Positions 36,191 to 44,228 are shown, counted from the stretch's first letter. The stretch is DNA of 54,700 nucleotides from Hydrogenophilaceae bacterium (GCA_013389055.1 JACAEC010000009.1:1-54700), one strand, 5' to 3'. Notes: generated by a model not told the origin, from the letters alone. Made by a program: numbers and translations.

Positions 36191-36703
36191 TTATTTCGCC
36201 GGGCAGGCATCGTCGCCGGGCACCTTGCCGGGCAGCAGCAGGAAGGCCTCGAACGGGCCCATCACGCTCATGGCTTCCATCTTGGGGCCGGAGAACTGTA
36301 GCCGGCCGAACATCATGGCGCGCATCGGGCCGTATTCGCCGGCACCCATTTCCCGCCAGCGCTTGGTCTCGGCATGCATGACGTAGTCGACGGCGAGGTC
36401 CAGGTTGGCGGTTTGCACCTTGCCGCCGTAGGTGCAGATGGCCTTGCCGCCCTGCGGCTGGACCTTCATCTCCACCTTGGTCGCCTCGCCGCAGTCGGTG
36501 CGGTACATCTGCATGATCTTGTAGCCACGGCCCTTGTCGTTCTTGATCCACTTGTCGGCGAGTTCGTCGGTCAGGGTGGCGGTCTTGTTCCACTGCTGGC
36601 AGGCCTGGGCGGCCCACTCGGCGGACATCAGCGGGGCGGCGAGGGCGGCCGGGGCGGCCAGGATAAGACCGCTGGCGCACAGGGCGGTGAAAAGCTTTTG
36701 CAT
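36191..36703 (-). CDS. Secreted small protein resembling SCP2 (sterol carrier/lipid-binding) domain proteins
   Basis: Signal peptide 'MQKLFTALCASGLILAAPAALA'; 'VDYVMHAETKRWREMGAGEYGPMRAMMFGRLQFSGPKMEAMSVMGPFEAFLLLPG' resembles the SCP2 C-terminal region. Confidence 0.65.
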   Translation of the reverse strand: MQKLFTALCASGLILAAPAALAAPLMSAEWAAQACQQWNKTATLTDELADKWIKNDKGRGYKIMQMYRTDCGEATKVEMKVQPQGGKAICTYGGKVQTANLDLAVDYVMHAETKRWREMGAGEYGPMRAMMFGRLQFSGPKMEAMSVMGPFEAFLLLPGKVPGDDACPAK

Positions 36704-36801
36704 TGTGTACTCCTCCATCGAATAGGGTTGGGCATCGACTGCCCGCGGCTAGGGTAGTGTGAACGTACCACCCTGTAAAGCCCCTTTGCTTTGCAGGGTT
36801 C

Positions 36802-37542
36802 TCAGGGCCGTTGCGACTGGACGGGCAGAGCGGGTTTTCCGGAGAGCACAAGCTCGATCTGCCGCTTGAGTTTCGCCAGGGCGGCACCGTCGCCGGCGGC
36901 CTCGGCCCGCTGCGCCAGGACTTGTAGCCAGGCGAGCAGGGGCCGGCGCCAGCCTTGCTCGGAAGCAGTCTGGCTGGCCAGGGCCATGGTCTCCGGCATG
37001 ATCTCGCCCCGCTTCAACAGCAGGGCGCCGGCAATGAGTCGGGCCACCGGATCGGCTATGGCCTGGGCGGTGCGGTTGCGCTGGCCGGCATCCGTGGCCT
37101 TGGCCAGTTCGGCATAGTGGCCCGGCAGCAGGTCCGCATTCAGCCCTTGCCAATCGCCGGCCAGGAAGCGGGCATAGGCCACCTCTTCGGCCGAGGCGTC
37201 GGCCGCCAGCTTTTCATATTCGACGCAGGGCGCAAAATCGAGACTGGCGATGCGGGTCCCGCAGCGAATCAGTTCGGCGCGCGCCACCAAGTCGAGCCGG
37301 CCGGTGCGGGCCAGTTCGCCGCGAGCCTTGGCGAAGTTCAGTTCCGCCGTGCGGGAATCGCCCTCGAGCCAGCGTTGCTGATAGTTCTCCAACTGACCGA
37401 CGGCATTCATCTTCCAATCAGGCGGCGGCGAACCGGCGCAGGCGACAAGCAAGAAAAGAGTGCCGAGTAGCGAGTACCGAGTGGCTCGGATCAAGTACCG
37501 AGTGACGAGTGCCGAGTACCGAGAGGCCCACCAAACAGGCAT
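36802..37542 (-). CDS. Putative lipoprotein of the MCE/Mla-like locus
   Basis: 'MPVWWASRYSALVTRYLIRATRYSLLGTLFLLVACAGSPPPDW': charged n-region, h-region, lipobox LVAC. ATG 37542; the ORF-track start 37632 runs back into mlaD. Confidence 0.65.
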   Translation of the reverse strand: MPVWWASRYSALVTRYLIRATRYSLLGTLFLLVACAGSPPPDWKMNAVGQLENYQQRWLEGDSRTAELNFAKARGELARTGRLDLVARAELIRCGTRIASLDFAPCVEYEKLAADASAEEVAYARFLAGDWQGLNADLLPGHYAELAKATDAGQRNRTAQAIADPVARLIAGALLLKRGEIMPETMALASQTASEQGWRRPLLAWLQVLAQRAEAAGDGAALAKLKRQIELVLSGKPALPVQSQRP

Positions 37543-37587
37543 AGTGGGTATCTCATTTCTCGCTACTCGGTACTCGTGACTCGTCAC
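37458..37587. repeat. Degenerate heptanucleotide repeat array in inverted arrangement
   Basis: gag-TGCCGAG-TAGCGAG-TACCGAG-(TGGCTCGGATCAAG)-TACCGAG-TGACGAG-TGCCGAG-TACCGAG, a ~35-nt spacer, then CTCGCTA-CTCGGTA-CTCGTGA-CTCGTCA. Confidence 0.85.
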
Positions 37588-37592
37588 AGATT

Positions 37593-38528
37593 TCATGGCA
37601 GCTTCACCTCCACCTCGCGGGCGAAGGGCCATTTGCGGTTGATCTCGTTGATCAGGTGATTGACCTTGCGCACGCTGTCGTCGATCTCGGCCCGCAAGAG
37701 GGTCAGGTCGGCGCTGGCCTCCTGGGCGTTGGCCAGGATGGCGTCGGCCTTCTTCAGGCTGTCCCGGGTCTGCAGCAGGATGGCGTTGACGTTGGCCAGG
37801 GCCTGGTCGGTCTGATCCATGACCCCGTTCTGGCCGAAGACCCGCTGATCCATCTTCAGCGAGAGGCCGTTGAGCGAGGTGAGCAGCTTGTCGGCCTGAT
37901 CGACCGCATCGACCACCTTCTTCGCCTTGTCGGCGCTGCCGAGCACGCCCTCGAGCATGCCATATTGCCCGGCCATGCGGCCGGTCACGGTGTTCACGTG
38001 GGTGAGGCTCTGGTCCAGGTCGGAGCCTTCATGGGTCATGCGCTCCAGATTGTCGAGCAGGTTCTTGGCGCGGGTGATCAAGAGCGGCAGTTCTTCGGTC
38101 ACGTCGCCGGTATACAGCGGCGGCACCGCATCGGCGGGCAGGGGTGGGGCACCGAGGTCGGTGCTGAAGACCCGGATATTGGCGCTGCCGACCAGGGATT
38201 TTTGCAGGGTGAACACGCTGGTCGTGCGCAGCCAGCGCAAATGCTTGGTCGGCACTTCCACTTCGATCCGGCCCTGGCCCTGCTCGGTCAGGGTGATGCG
38301 CTTGACTTGGCCGATCGGGAAGCCGGAGAAGTTGAGCGGCATGCCGATACTGACGTTGCTGACGTCCTCGGCCACCAGGGTGAGGGTGCGGGTCGATTCG
38401 AACAGGCCGCGGGCGAACAGGGTATAGACGAAGAAGCCGACGGCGAGGAACACGGTGATGCCGACCAGCAGGCTGACCTTGAGGCCCAGGTGCTTGATCA
38501 AATGGGTGGGTAGAGAGGGGCGTTCCAT
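37593..38528 (-). CDS. MlaD/MCE-domain protein (lipid-transport ABC substrate-binding component)
   Basis: 'LGLKVSLLVGITVFLAVGFFVYTLFARGLFESTRTLTLVAEDVSNVSIGMPLNFSGFPIGQVKRITL' (MCE domain), then a long helical tail. Confidence 0.92.
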   Translation of the reverse strand: MERPSLPTHLIKHLGLKVSLLVGITVFLAVGFFVYTLFARGLFESTRTLTLVAEDVSNVSIGMPLNFSGFPIGQVKRITLTEQGQGRIEVEVPTKHLRWLRTTSVFTLQKSLVGSANIRVFSTDLGAPPLPADAVPPLYTGDVTEELPLLITRAKNLLDNLERMTHEGSDLDQSLTHVNTVTGRMAGQYGMLEGVLGSADKAKKVVDAVDQADKLLTSLNGLSLKMDQRVFGQNGVMDQTDQALANVNAILLQTRDSLKKADAILANAQEASADLTLLRAEIDDSVRKVNHLINEINRKWPFAREVEVKLP

Positions 38529-38956
38529 CGATAGTCCACGATCCAGAGCGTATTGATCTCGTCTTCCAGTTTAGTCAGGCAATCGGCCAGAAAGGTCGGA
38601 TAGGGCAGGTCCGGCAACAGCAGGCCGGGGCGCTCGATCACGATTATAGAGGGCCGGCCGATCAATGCCCGCAGCAGCTTGGCGACGAAGCGCTGCTCAT
38701 AGTTCAGATCGGGGTCTCGATGGTGGGCGCAGCCGGTTTGGGCCAGCCGTTCCAGCAGGCCCCACGCCTGCTCGCTAGCCTGTTGGGGCGTTGCGTTGTC
38801 ACGATATTGCGGCACCAGGGCGATGTTTTCCAAGACCGAAAGGTTGGCGCGCAGGGGCAGTTCCGCCGAGATCTGCACGGCGTCGGGATGGGCCTCCAGC
38901 CAGGCGCGCCGTTCGGCGTCGCTGTCGACCCAGGCTACAGATAAGTGATCGCTAAT
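38498..38956 (-). CDS. Truncated, catalytically degenerate ABC-ATPase-like protein at the MlaF position
   Basis: Between mlaE and mlaD; 'VQISAELPLRANLSVLENIALVPQ', 'DLNYEQRFVAKLLRALIGRPSIIVIERPGLLL', 'LWIVDYRW' align to Q-loop, signature, Walker B and H-loop regions, with no Walker A. Start uncertain (no in-frame ATG; ATT 38956 or a downstream GTG). Confidence 0.7.
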   Translation of the reverse strand: MSDHLSVAWVDSDAERRAWLEAHPDAVQISAELPLRANLSVLENIALVPQYRDNATPQQASEQAWGLLERLAQTGCAHHRDPDLNYEQRFVAKLLRALIGRPSIIVIERPGLLLPDLPYPTFLADCLTKLEDEINTLWIVDYRWNAPLYPPI

Positions 38957-39729
38957 GATCCGACCTCGATCAGCATCAGGGCGAAGAACAGCCGTACCAT
39001 GCCTGTGTGCACGGCGATCGGCGCGAAGAACAGTTTGTGCGGGGCCTCGAGGCCGGCGGCGATGGGGATCACCGTGACCGCCAGGCCGAACATCAGGCAC
39101 TTGAGCCAGAGGCCGAGCACCTGGAGTGGCGAGAAAACCTGGCCCAGGATTTGGCTGAAGGCGGCCAAGCCGCTGGTTTCCAGGCCATACAGGCTAACAT
39201 AGGCGATCAGCATGGCGATCAGGCTGACCACTGCGGTCAGGGCCAGCACCGAGAGCACGCCGCCGATCACCCGGGGCAGAAATTCCAGGCGCAGGGCGTC
39301 GACGCCGACATCGGCCAGGGCCTGGATCTCGTTGTTGATGTTCATCAGCGCGATCTCGGCATTGATCGCCGCACCCGAGCGCAAGGCGACGAATAGGGCA
39401 GTCACCAGGGGCAGCAACTCGATCACCAGGAAGCGCAACACGACCTCGAGCGCCAAATCGCCCAGGCCGTAATTCCGTGCCGCCGTCACGGCGATCTGGA
39501 TCAGGATCAGGCTGAGCAGGGCGGCGAACAGGCTGAAGCTGCCGAGGATTTGCCAGGCGGTGAAATAGATCTGTTTTTCCACCACGGTGCGGGTGGCACT
39601 GTTGTAGAGGCGAGGCGAAAAGATGCCGGCCAGCGCGATGCCGCCGAAGCTCAGCATACGTGCCATGGGGCTGAAGCGGGCGATCAGGATGTCGCCACTT
39701 CGGGTGAGCAGTTTGATGAGCCAGCGCAT
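38935..39729 (-). CDS. MlaE-family ABC transporter permease
   Basis: 'LYNSATRTVVEKQIYFTAWQILGSF...LVTALFVALRSGAAINAEIALMNINNEIQALADVGVDALRLEFLPRVIGGVLSV'. Start 39729 or 39747; the 544-aa track ORF is over-extended. Confidence 0.92.
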   Translation of the reverse strand: MRWLIKLLTRSGDILIARFSPMARMLSFGGIALAGIFSPRLYNSATRTVVEKQIYFTAWQILGSFSLFAALLSLILIQIAVTAARNYGLGDLALEVVLRFLVIELLPLVTALFVALRSGAAINAEIALMNINNEIQALADVGVDALRLEFLPRVIGGVLSVLALTAVVSLIAMLIAYVSLYGLETSGLAAFSQILGQVFSPLQVLGLWLKCLMFGLAVTVIPIAAGLEAPHKLFFAPIAVHTGMVRLFFALMLIEVGSLAITYL

Positions 39730-39800
39730 GCTGCGATCATAATGCATCGGTATGGTGCGATGGGTATCATTGTCCAGTGAGCCAAAAGAGAGAATTCGCC

Positions 39801-40340
39801 ATGAAGATATTCCGCAGTGGGCTTGCGCTGCTTTTGCTGGTCGCGCTGCCGGCTTGGGCGGCACCCGGGGTGATGCTGCGCGACGATACCTTGCGCAACG
39901 CGCCCTCGGCGACGGCGGCGGCGGTCGGTAGCGTGACCAAGGGCCAAGCGGTCGAGGTGCTCGGCCGCCAAAGCGGCTGGAGCCGGGTACAGGCCCAGGG
40001 CAAGACCGGCTGGGTACGCCTGCTTTCGGTGCGCGGCGGCGCGGTGGCGCAGACCGATGTCGGCGGCGAACTGGCCGGTGTGCTCGCCTTGGGCGGGACC
40101 CGGCGCGACCCGGGCAAGGTGGTGGCGGTGGCCGGGGTACGCGGCCTGAGCGAGGAGGAGTTGAAGCAGGCGCGTTACGACGCCCGGCAACTGGAGCGCC
40201 TGGAAGGTTATGCCGTGACGCTGCCCGAGGCGAACCGTTTCGCCGCCGAGGCCGGCCTGGCCCGGCGTGAAGTCGCCTACCTGCCGGCGCCGCAAAGCGC
40301 ATCGGGCAGCGGCGAGACCTGGGGAGGGAACCAGCCATGA
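39801..40340 (+). CDS. Secreted SH3-domain (bacterial SH3b-like) protein
   Basis: Signal peptide 'MKIFRSGLALLLLVALPAWA'; 'LRNAPSATAAAVGSVTKGQAVEVLGRQSGWSRVQAQGKTGWVRLLSV'. Confidence 0.85.
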   Translation: MKIFRSGLALLLLVALPAWAAPGVMLRDDTLRNAPSATAAAVGSVTKGQAVEVLGRQSGWSRVQAQGKTGWVRLLSVRGGAVAQTDVGGELAGVLALGGTRRDPGKVVAVAGVRGLSEEELKQARYDARQLERLEGYAVTLPEANRFAAEAGLARREVAYLPAPQSASGSGETWGGNQP

Positions 40341-41218
40341 AGATGCGTCTGATTCTCCTTGCCTGCCTGCTGTCCGGCAGCCTCGCCCAGGCGGCCGATT
40401 TCGGCGGCCTGCTGCGCGGCGTGCTCAATGGCGGCGTACAGATCGGCCCGCAGCAGGAGACGCCGCAGGACAACAACGGCGACGCCGTAGGCAACCTGGT
40501 CGGCGCCCTGCTCAGTGGCAACACCTCGCCCGAGCAAGAACGCCTGATCGGCCAGCAAATCTCCGGCAACCTCTTGGGCGCGGCGCCGCTGGTGGGCGAC
40601 GCGGCGCTGCAGCGCTACGTCAACCGGGTCGGCCGCTGGGTGGCGAGCACCAGTGAACGGCCGGACCTGGCCTGGCGCTTCGGCGTGGTCGAGAGCGAGG
40701 ACATCAACGCCTTCGCCGCACCCGGCGGTTATGTCTTCGTCACCAAGGGTCTGTACAAGAAATTGCAGAACGAGGCGGAATTGGCTGCCGTGCTCGGCCA
40801 CGAGATCGGCCATGTCGTGCGCCAGCATCACCTCAAGCTCTTGCAGCAGTCGCAGATGGTGGCGGCCGTCGGTGGCCTGCTCGGCCAGCGGCTGGGCAAC
40901 AAGAACCAGCTTATCCAGAACCTGATCGGCAACGGCGCCGAGATCGTCGCCCGCTCGCTCGACAAGGATGCCGAGTACGAGGCCGATCGCATCGGCATGG
41001 TGCTGAGCGCGCGCGCCGGCTACGACCCCTATGCCTTGCCTGCGGTGCTGCAGGAGATCGGCCATGTGCCGGCCCAGGACAGCCGCATGGCCCTGCTCTA
41101 CAAGACCCATCCGCATCCCGAGGACCGGCTGGCCCGCTTGGGCGAGGCGGTGGAGTCGGCCGAGGCCGGCCTGCCGGAGGGGAACTTGGTGAGTAACCGC
41201 TTCTACCGCCTCAAATGA
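40337..41218 (+). CDS. M48-family metalloprotease
   Basis: Signal peptide; 'AFAAPGGYVFVTKGLYKKLQNEAELAAVLGHEIGHVVRQHH' (HExxH), 'EYEADRIGMVLSARAGYDP'. Confidence 0.94.
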   Translation: MKMRLILLACLLSGSLAQAADFGGLLRGVLNGGVQIGPQQETPQDNNGDAVGNLVGALLSGNTSPEQERLIGQQISGNLLGAAPLVGDAALQRYVNRVGRWVASTSERPDLAWRFGVVESEDINAFAAPGGYVFVTKGLYKKLQNEAELAAVLGHEIGHVVRQHHLKLLQQSQMVAAVGGLLGQRLGNKNQLIQNLIGNGAEIVARSLDKDAEYEADRIGMVLSARAGYDPYALPAVLQEIGHVPAQDSRMALLYKTHPHPEDRLARLGEAVESAEAGLPEGNLVSNRFYRLK

Positions 41219-43431
41219 CCCAGCGCAGCCGCCGATTTCTCGGGCAATTGGCGGTCAGCCTGGTTTTTCTGTTGATCCTGCTGGGCCATACCGGCGGCCT
41301 CTACAGCCTGTATTTCATCGAGAAATTCGATGCCGCCCTCTACGACCTGAAGCTGCGGCTGTTCCGCGAGCAGGGCGTCGACGACCGGGTGGTCATCGTC
41401 GACATCGACGAGAAATCGCTGCGCGAGATCGGCCGCTGGCCTTGGCCGCGGCTGCAAACGGCCAAGCTGACCGAGAACCTGTTCGATCAATACGGCGCGG
41501 CGGCGGTCGGTTTCGACATCGTCTTCGCCGAGCCCGACCAGAGCTCGGGCCTGCCTGTCCTCCAAGGCCTAGCGCGCGGGCCTCTGGCCGGAGAGGCCGG
41601 TTTTGCCCGAATGCTCGAGCGGGTCGCCCCCGGCCTCGATTACGACGCCCGCCTGGCCCATGCCCTGGCCAAGGGCCCGGTGGTGCTGGGTTATTACTTC
41701 GGCTTCGGTTCTGCGGCCGGCCGGGTCGGCGACTTGCCGCAGCCGATCCTGCCCTGTGGCCGACTCGATGGGCATGGGGTGCGGCTGCTTGTCGCGAGCG
41801 GCTACGGCGCCAACCTGCCGGCCTTGCAGGCCAAGGCGTTCGACGCCGGTTTCTTCAATGTCCAGCCCGATTTCGATGGGGTGATCCGCCGGCAGCCACT
41901 GCTGATCGAGCATCAGGGCCAGTGTTATGGCGCCTTGGCCCTGGCACTGGTGCGGGCCGGCTTGGGCCTGGGCCCGGCCGATGTCCTGGCGGCGGGCCAG
42001 GCCGGCGGGTTGGCGACCAGCCCGGCCGCCCTGTCATTCGATGGTGTCATGGCGCCGATGGATGAAAACGGCATGGTGCTGGTGCCCTACCGTACAGATC
42101 GGGCCTATCGTTACATTTCAGCCACCGATGTCATCCACGGTCGGGTGCCGGCGGCCGAACTGGAGGGCCGGCTGGTGCTGATCGGGGCGACCGCGCCCGG
42201 CATCATGGACCTGCGGGTCACCCCGACCGACAAGGCTTTCCCCGGCGTGGAGATCCACGCCAATGTGATCTCCGGCCTGCTCGACGGCAGCATCAAGTGG
42301 GAGCCGGCTCAGGCCCGGCGCTGGAACCTCGGCGCGGTGGTGCTGTTCGGCTTGCTGCTGGCGTTGTGGCTACCCTTCGCGGCCCCACTGTGGGCGGCGG
42401 CCGCAGTCGCCGGCTTGGTGATGCTGGCGATCGGTGCCGATCTCTACGCCTGGTCGGCCCTGCATCTTAGCCTGGCACCGGCCAGCCTGCTGCTCGCCCT
42501 GGCCGGTCTTTTCATCCTCAACATGAGCTACGGCTTCTTCGTCGAGGCCCGGGCCAAGCTGCAGATCACCCGGCTGTTCGGCCAGTATGTGCCACCGGAA
42601 CTGGTCGAGGAGATGGCCAGGGACCCGGCCCGCTACAGCCTGCGTGGCCAGTCGCGGGAGATGACCGTGCTGTTCTCCGACATCCGCGATTTCACCAGCA
42701 TCTCCGAAGGCCTGGAGGCGGCCGAATTGGCCGACATGCTCAACGCCTATCTATCGACCATGACCCGTGTGGTCCAAGAGCATCGCGGCACCATCGACAA
42801 ATACATCGGCGATGCGATCATGGCCTTCTGGGGTGCGCCCTTGAGCAATGACCGGCATGCCCGCGATGGCGTGCTCACGGCCCTGGCCATGCAGCAGGTG
42901 CTGGCGGAATTGAACCCGCAGTTGCAGGCGAAGGGTTGGCCGGCGGTGAAGATCGGCGTCGGCGTCAATACCGGGCGCATGAGCGTCGGCAATATGGGCT
43001 CGAGCTTCCGCATGGCCTATACGGTCATGGCCGATGCGGTGAATCTGGCCTCGCGCCTGGAAGGGCTGACCAAACAGTATGGGGTGGGGGTGCTCTGTGG
43101 CGAGGCGACCCGGGCGGCCTGCCCGGACATGGCCTTCCGCCTGATCGACCGGGTGCGGGTGAAAGGCAAGGCGCAGCCGGTGGCGATCTATGAGCCGCTC
43201 GGTCTCAAGGCCGAACTGTCCGAGGCGGCCCAGCGTGCGGCCGAGCGTTTCGAGGCGGCCCTGGCGGATTATCAGGCCCAACGCTGGGATGCTGCTGCAT
43301 CGGCGTTGCAGGCGTTGAATGCGGAAACACCGGGCAAGCTTTACACGGTATATTTAGAACGGATTGAACACTTCCGCCAACAGCCGCCGGCAGCAGATTG
43401 GGATGGCGTGTTTACCTACACAACCAAATAG
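41215..43431 (+). CDS. CHASE2-domain adenylate/guanylate cyclase
   Basis: N-terminal CHASE2 'DDRVVIVDIDEKSLREIGRWPWPR', TM helices, cyclase 'VLFSDIRDFTSISEGLEAAELADMLNAYLSTMTRVVQEHRGTIDKYIGDAIMAFWGAP'. Confidence 0.95.
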   Translation: MTQRSRRFLGQLAVSLVFLLILLGHTGGLYSLYFIEKFDAALYDLKLRLFREQGVDDRVVIVDIDEKSLREIGRWPWPRLQTAKLTENLFDQYGAAAVGFDIVFAEPDQSSGLPVLQGLARGPLAGEAGFARMLERVAPGLDYDARLAHALAKGPVVLGYYFGFGSAAGRVGDLPQPILPCGRLDGHGVRLLVASGYGANLPALQAKAFDAGFFNVQPDFDGVIRRQPLLIEHQGQCYGALALALVRAGLGLGPADVLAAGQAGGLATSPAALSFDGVMAPMDENGMVLVPYRTDRAYRYISATDVIHGRVPAAELEGRLVLIGATAPGIMDLRVTPTDKAFPGVEIHANVISGLLDGSIKWEPAQARRWNLGAVVLFGLLLALWLPFAAPLWAAAAVAGLVMLAIGADLYAWSALHLSLAPASLLLALAGLFILNMSYGFFVEARAKLQITRLFGQYVPPELVEEMARDPARYSLRGQSREMTVLFSDIRDFTSISEGLEAAELADMLNAYLSTMTRVVQEHRGTIDKYIGDAIMAFWGAPLSNDRHARDGVLTALAMQQVLAELNPQLQAKGWPAVKIGVGVNTGRMSVGNMGSSFRMAYTVMADAVNLASRLEGLTKQYGVGVLCGEATRAACPDMAFRLIDRVRVKGKAQPVAIYEPLGLKAELSEAAQRAAERFEAALADYQAQRWDAAASALQALNAETPGKLYTVYLERIEHFRQQPPAADWDGVFTYTTK

Positions 43432-43463
43432 GCTCCAAGGGGCGGGAGCAAGGAGACAGACGA

Positions 43464-44228
43464 ATGCGGATACGGGTCTTGGGTTGCAACGGGGGTATCG
43501 GCGATGGCCGCCACACCACCTCGTTCCTCATCGACGAGGACATCCTGCTCGATGCCGGCAGCGGCGTGACCCGGCTGGCTCTGGAGGCCCTGGAGAAGAT
43601 CGATCACATCTTTCTCACCCATGCCCATCTCGACCATATCCTGGCCATGCCGCCCATGCTCGACAGCGTCATCGGCCGGCGCGAGCGGCCGGTTACCCTG
43701 CATGCCATTCCCGAGGTGCTGGAGGTATTGAAAGAGCACTTGTTCAACTGGCAGATCTGGCCCGACTTCAATCGGATTCCCAGCAAAGAGGCGCCGATCC
43801 TGATCTATTCGCCGATCGCAGTAGGCCAGACAGTGCGCATGGGGGCGCGGGAGATCACGCCCATCCCGGCCAATCACGTGGTCCCGGCCGTGGGCTATCA
43901 CCTGCGCGGCGGCAAGGGCAGCCTGATCTTTTCGGGCGATACCTGCGGCCACGACGCCCTCTGGAACATCGCCGCAGAGGTCGGCGATCTCAAGCACCTG
44001 ATCGTGGAGTGTTCCTTCCCGAATTCCATGCGCGAGATCGCCGATGCCTCCAAGCATTATTGTCCGGCCACGCTGAGTGCCGATCTCGCCCGCCTGAAGT
44101 TGGGCGTGCCGATTTGGATAACGCACATGAAGCCGGGCAGCGAGGTGGACATCATCGTCGAGCTCGACGAGTTGGTGAACAGCCGGCTGGTGCAGACCCT
44201 GCGCGAAGGGCACCTGTTCGAAATCTAG
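43464..44228 (+). CDS. MBL-fold 3',5'-cyclic-nucleotide phosphodiesterase (class II-like)
   Basis: 'MRIRVLGCNGGIGDGRHTTSFLIDEDILLDAGSGV...DHIFLTHAHLDHILAMPPML...FSGDTCGHDALW...ITHMKPG'. Confidence 0.88.
   Translation: MRIRVLGCNGGIGDGRHTTSFLIDEDILLDAGSGVTRLALEALEKIDHIFLTHAHLDHILAMPPMLDSVIGRRERPVTLHAIPEVLEVLKEHLFNWQIWPDFNRIPSKEAPILIYSPIAVGQTVRMGAREITPIPANHVVPAVGYHLRGGKGSLIFSGDTCGHDALWNIAAEVGDLKHLIVECSFPNSMREIADASKHYCPATLSADLARLKLGVPIWITHMKPGSEVDIIVELDELVNSRLVQTLREGHLFEI

Follow-up and report, generated by a model that had tools for sequence, protein, structure and literature searches.

The window, i.e., the whole stretch of 54,700 nucleotides that was analyzed, revealed a run of five genes, all on the minus strand and present where the first-pass annotation had located them. 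The most upstream one encodes a divergent MlaE-type permease (38935–39747; PF02405, E = 4.5e-35) of 270 amino acids, counted from the ATG at 39747, with an alternative ATG at 39729. It is followed by a gene for a P-loop-less ABC pseudo-ATPase of 152 amino acids (38498–38956), here called psATP, which was identified by a family profile, AlphaFold/Foldseek, and conservation in place, and which shares 22 nt with the 3' end of mlaE and 31 nt with the 5' end of the following gene. The latter (37593–38528) encodes an MCE protein of 311 amino acids with one MCE domain (PF02470, residues 46–109, E = 1.7e-6) and about 200 residues C-terminal of this domain; comparison with TIGR00996 resulted in a match over residues 19–280 (E = 5.2e-10), which is under the curated cut-off. 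Via an ATGA overlap, the MCE gene is joined to a lipoprotein gene (36802–37596; lipobox LLVACAG), whose product was assigned to no family. Its AlphaFold model (pLDDT 92.2) displayed 11 helices and is wholly helical past the lipobox, and a fold search gave no confident match in the PDB. Finally, after a gap of 98 nt, the size of which had been given correctly before, a gene with its own ribosome-binding site encodes a secreted protein with an SCP2 domain (36191–36703; PF02036, E = 4.2e-5). As already annotated, neither MlaC nor an intact MlaF is encoded near the locus within the window; both occur elsewhere in the genome. A sigma-70 scan revealed no promoter, and the 98-nt gap showed no unusual fold; neither marks a limit of the operon.

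The sequence of psATP alone resulted in no Pfam match. A profile based on 30 relatives matched ABC ATPases in the PDB from just past the Walker A region, with psATP residues 24–119 corresponding to residues 78–173 of 4u00 (E = 8.9e-9), and when the profile was compared with that of the MlaF family from these genomes, residue 38 onward aligned with MlaF residue 95 onward. Foldseek analysis of the AlphaFold model (pLDDT 92.9) revealed 231 PDB matches at E ≤ 0.001, with ABC nucleotide-binding domains (NBDs) among the matches listed, e.g., those of LptB, LolD, MlaF (6xgy, 6z5u), and MceG (8fed). Thus, the suspected ABC-ATPase-like remnant was confirmed as an ABC homolog by both the family profile and the model. 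Its fold is that of an ABC NBD, but as a half-domain only and without the Walker A motif and catalytic Glu of a functional one: the stretch past the Q-loop, the helical subdomain, and the Walker B strand are retained, while the P-loop, the LSGGQ signature, and the catalytic Glu are lost. In psATP, LSGGM is changed to LNYEQ and DEP to ERP (DRP in most relatives), and Walker A/P-loop and catalytic Glu are absent from all 30 aligned psATP sequences. An invariant PLRxNL stretch is located just past the Q-loop position, and the corresponding segment of LptB presumably contacts the coupling helices. Searches of the open-access literature brought up no ABC subunit that lacks Walker A and is paired with an MlaE permease.

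Translation of psATP almost certainly starts at an AUU codon inside the 3' end of mlaE (ATT at 38954–38956, minus strand), as judged from sequence comparison; this start is a new finding that had not been noticed in the first-pass annotation. A Shine-Dalgarno-like GAGGT, recognized by its comparative spacing, lies 6 nt 5' of the ATT (38963–38967, same strand). In most relatives, there is no ATG, GTG, or TTG near the start of psATP homology. Among the 88 loci in which mlaE and psATP are linked, 74 displayed ATT and the other 14 ATG, which is in frame and near the stop of mlaE in all 14 (Fisher p = 1.8e-12, which counts sequences rather than independent events, since the loci are related and a start-codon tree revealed about seven changes). 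ATT was found in 74 of 98 distinct loci, the mlaE stop codon invariably ending 21 nt downstream of it, and 73 of the 74 had an SD-like match at equal spacing. In the mlaE frame, the ATT demands the rare codons TCA TTR (TCA TTA in the window); in these loci, TCA makes up 2.35% of Ser codons, and TTA and TTG 0.55% and 11% of Leu codons, respectively, so that TCA TTR would be expected by chance for about 0.3% of Ser-Leu pairs. In family f47, MlaE reads Leu-Leu at this site instead of Ser-Leu, and the ATT is nonetheless retained. No standard start was detected between −30 and +12 in 56 of the 74 ATT loci, while the remaining 18 harbored another in-frame ATG, GTG, or TTG within +6 nt of the mlaE stop as a possible start. 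A GTG at 39100 was rejected as the psATP start based on in-frame stops in the same-genus relatives L083–L085.

Gene rearrangements provided natural controls. Where mlaE is unlinked, four of five copies have reverted to TCG CTG, i.e., common codons encoding the same residues. Unlinked psATP genes kept the ATT in four loci (L097, L118, L146, and L256), each with a newly placed AGGAG 7–8 nt 5' of it, while L140 displayed ATC and five others (L047, L048, L098, L131, and L147) an ATG in frame, either at the start or immediately ahead of it. The infC gene served as a positive control: in these genomes, it seems to start at ATA or ATC, and five of the eight infC genes read had no in-frame ATG, GTG, or TTG across the preceding 30 codons. 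Comparative evidence places the psATP start among conserved non-AUG start codons with a Shine-Dalgarno sequence.

Based on gene order in the relatives, the divergent MlaE, psATP, the long protein with a single MCE domain, and the helical lipoprotein form a conserved unit. From the run of five genes annotated before, these four are kept together in order, while the SCP2 gene lies outside the unit. The unit was found in Thiobacillaceae, in five more families belonging to the same order, and in one family that is distant, with its gene order kept in families f1, f24, f30, f35, f47, and f11 and in the distant genome G642. In the window's family, psATP was present in 32 of 37 genomes, a count that leaves out G021 and G035, where the matches were weak. 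When the search was widened to 398 genomes of the order, psATP was detected in five additional families, where the order MlaE-psATP-MCE-lipoprotein is retained, and a class-wide sample added one distant four-gene copy (G642), likewise without Walker A. Weak matches in families f10 and f22 from the order search had longer frames and no adjoining MlaE and were read as unrelated ABC ATPases. Named relatives were mostly Thiobacillus, Parasulfuritortus, Hydrogenophilales, and related Betaproteobacteria. The divergent MlaE was located on a separate contig from psATP in four psATP carriers (G016, G018, G023, and G025) and was missing from G011, G021, and G028, genomes without psATP; by these comparisons, the permease and psATP go together even where their genes are not linked.

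The idea of a variant MCE system with a degenerate linked ATPase was borne out, and it is conserved and under purifying selection. Outside the overlaps, psATP displayed dN/dS values of 0.10–0.36 in 12 pairs, which is of the same order as for the neighboring genes, and 19 residues are invariant among the 30 sequences. These values, the confident fold, and the retention of psATP where mlaE has moved off make it extremely improbable that psATP is the decaying remnant of a lost MlaF gene, retained merely through overlap with its neighbors, although every nucleotide-binding motif is gone and both neighbors do overlap it. Very probably, psATP is a selected, ATP-free subunit. Decay of the whole copy, proposed for the case that a complete mlaFEDCB locus exists elsewhere, has to be rejected as well: such a locus exists, yet the unit is conserved and selected. 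With respect to translation, the conserved CATTR could instead be kept for mRNA structure or rare-codon pausing, with psATP starting at an XTG codon that overlaps the mlaE stop or arising by frameshift from mlaE. A CTG or GTG overlaps the TGA stop in many relatives, but most of the window genus lacks such a codon, in L084 the psATP frame is interrupted by a stop shortly before the ATT, and in unlinked L118 it contains a stop five codons before the ATT and no ATG, GTG, or TTG. Since the new SD sequences are properly spaced from the ATT also in the absence of mlaE, and inspection by eye revealed no slippery heptamer, we regard both variants as highly improbable and retain the AUU start. The SCP2-like protein had been suggested as a periplasmic lipid carrier in place of MlaC. 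It is indeed secreted, with a signal peptide identified by eye and four invariant Cys, lies on the same strand, is adjacent in the window genus, and has a real SCP2 domain (24.3 bits versus a gathering threshold of 21.3, E = 4.2e-5), the match being partial (profile positions 46–100 of 101) and shared at E ≤ 0.1 by 23 of 24 relatives. Its distribution and linkage argue against this role: it is absent from the carriers G016 and G059 and present in G011 and G028, which lack the system, and once separated (L099, L100, L101, and L102) its gene lies directly behind two YeeE/YedE genes (PF04143). In many linked relatives, two YeeE/YedE genes are located between the SCP2 gene and the lipoprotein gene, and it looks adjacent in the window genus because they are missing there. 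With the genome's MlaC also present in mlaFEDCB, replacement of MlaC by this protein is very unlikely, and we judged it, from sequence comparison, not to be part of the four-gene unit. A role of the SCP2 protein with sulfur transport is a separate candidate lead.

A further alternative concerns the supply of ATPases. The window genome harbors three MlaE proteins and three MlaF-class ATPases: a complete mlaFEDCB, including an intact MlaF and the only MlaC of the genome, is located on contig 202, contig 52 encodes a STAS-MlaE together with MlaD, an intact ATPase, and a lipoprotein of the ABC_trans_aux type (PF03886), and contig 142 harbors an intact MlaF-like ATPase on its own. The latter was found by the genome-wide search for an orphan MlaF that had been suggested at the outset; such orphans also occur in many f1 genomes but not consistently among carriers, so that a dedicated orphan MlaF as a regular part of the system was discarded. 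The divergent MlaE shares only 22–25% identity with the canonical MlaE proteins of the same genome but retains the coupling-helix motif LMxIxNExxALxxxGVDPxRxEFxPR, which is partly shared with the genome's own canonical MlaE. An intact MlaF-class ATPase, either MlaF of the mla locus or the contig 142 orphan, could therefore power the divergent MlaE in trans, much as mycobacterial MceG serves several Mce systems, and psATP would then be only an accessory or placeholder. Besides the retained motif, this would fit the equal numbers of MlaE and MlaF-class ATPases in the window genome and the orphans in f1, while elsewhere a canonical MlaF could be shared. However, many carriers lack the orphan, its H-loop His is replaced by Tyr in the three sequences read, and MlaF is one short of MlaE in 13 carriers (G006, G009, G016, G019, G023, G034, G065, G082, G148, G155, G191, G250, and G277; the MlaE count of G023 leaves out one further MlaE fragment). 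Moreover, G248, a single incomplete genome (96% complete), encodes one MlaE, which is of the divergent type, and no MlaF-class ATPase at all. Altogether, powering in trans seems rather unlikely, and since 13 carriers have no spare MlaF-class ATPase and one has none, there is room for a transporter that is ATP-independent or otherwise powered.

The overall explanation that we favor with fair confidence is that of a four-gene MCE-type envelope transporter which is related to Mla but is not Mla. In such a transporter, psATP would likely dock on the coupling helices of MlaE at the place of MlaF and may stabilize or gate the permease without ATP hydrolysis. The MCE ring and the long C-terminal part would form a periplasmic conduit, which the lipoprotein may meet at the outer membrane; a soluble carrier of the MlaC type would then be dispensable. 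The AUU start could couple psATP synthesis to mlaE translation and, by analogy with infC, might be repressible by IF3. The driving force and direction of MCE transporters are debated, and for ATP-independent transport by the unit, which we infer from these features, we see at best an even chance. The combined proposal of an MlaE-type permease with a permanently ATP-free half-NBD as its sole cognate NBD-like subunit, working without ATP, and with an IF3-sensitive AUU start, conserved in several betaproteobacterial families, that meters psATP, is put forward tentatively.

With regard to known systems, infC of E. coli starts with ATT, and the GTC start of Streptomyces sigR is repressed by IF3 (PMC5472188). 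For non-canonical starts in infC fidelity mutants, increases of 3- to 15-fold have been published (PMC5472188). The AUU of psATP resembles both as a conserved non-AUG start of the IF3-repressed kind (PMC5472188), but in this case the gene encodes a transporter subunit and overlaps its upstream gene, and IF3 control is putative. It would extend conserved non-AUG initiation beyond infC and suggests possible control of a lipid transporter at the level of IF3. Start-codon prediction tools assume ATG, GTG, or TTG and therefore miss such AUU starts.

A 'true Mla' system has been defined by, e.g., under about 50 residues past the MCE domain (PMC7790496). The locus encodes a permease of the MlaE family (PF02405, E = 4.5e-35), but it is not a 'true Mla' by the criteria of that study because no intact MlaF (Walker A, signature, Walker B, H-loop) is encoded with MlaE, no MlaC partner is present in the operon, and the MCE protein has a long C-terminus (domain at residues 46–109 of 311). 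With MlaFEDB of E. coli and A. baumannii (plus MlaC and MlaA), the unit shares an MlaE-type permease beside an MCE protein, the coupling-helix motif, and a predicted cytoplasmic partner with an NBD-type fold. Unlike MlaFEDB, it lacks intact MlaF, MlaB, and MlaC, includes a lipoprotein, and has an MCE protein with about 200 instead of under about 50 residues past the domain (PMC7790496). The STAS-MlaE/MlaF/MlaD/ABC_trans_aux (PqiC-type) system on contig 52 displays the same order of permease, ATPase, MCE protein, and lipoprotein as well as a long MCE protein; its ATPase carries GGSGSGKT and LSGG, its permease a STAS-like domain, and its lipoprotein belongs to PF03886, while that of the unit is all-helical and assigned to no family. 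Mycobacterial Mce1 with MceG likewise has long MCE proteins and MlaE-like permeases, and in mycobacterial Mce systems the ATPase is not always encoded beside the permease. MceG is an intact ATPase, whereas psATP has no P-loop (Foldseek TM of 0.67 over the query to 8fed_H). The locus may nevertheless work like an MCE lipid conduit, and if its ATPase site was discarded but the NBD-like subunit kept, it would separate the structural role of an NBD from its role in energy supply.

The repeat array in the lipoprotein gene (36802-37596, minus strand) consists of short units of the GAGTACCGAGTGACGAGTACC type, occupies 37458-37576 within the 5' end of the gene and lengthens the N-terminus of the protein ahead of its lipobox. 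Six matches to the unit were found in the window against 0.12 expected, all six within this array.

Across most of the Thiobacillaceae, the four-gene unit was found to adjoin the same divergent block (39777-44228). The block encodes an SH3-domain protein, an M48 peptidase and two proteins identified by eye, one cyclase-like and the other metallo-beta-lactamase-like. In many members of the family (L099, L100, L101, L102, L087, L091), a YeeE/YedE pair is directly followed by the secreted SCP2-domain protein, which is possibly a periplasmic partner in the handling of sulphur compounds.

The orphan MlaF-like ATPase (L305, contig 142:930-1724 of the window genome; L306:8597-9406; L307:8478-9365) retains Walker A, the signature motif and Walker B in intact form, but its H-loop reads TYD instead of THD in all three genomes, representing two genera.

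The IF3 gene infC, with which the ATT start of psATP was compared, seems itself to begin at ATA or ATC, not ATT, in the Thiobacillaceae and in families related to them (L319-L323, L325-L327).
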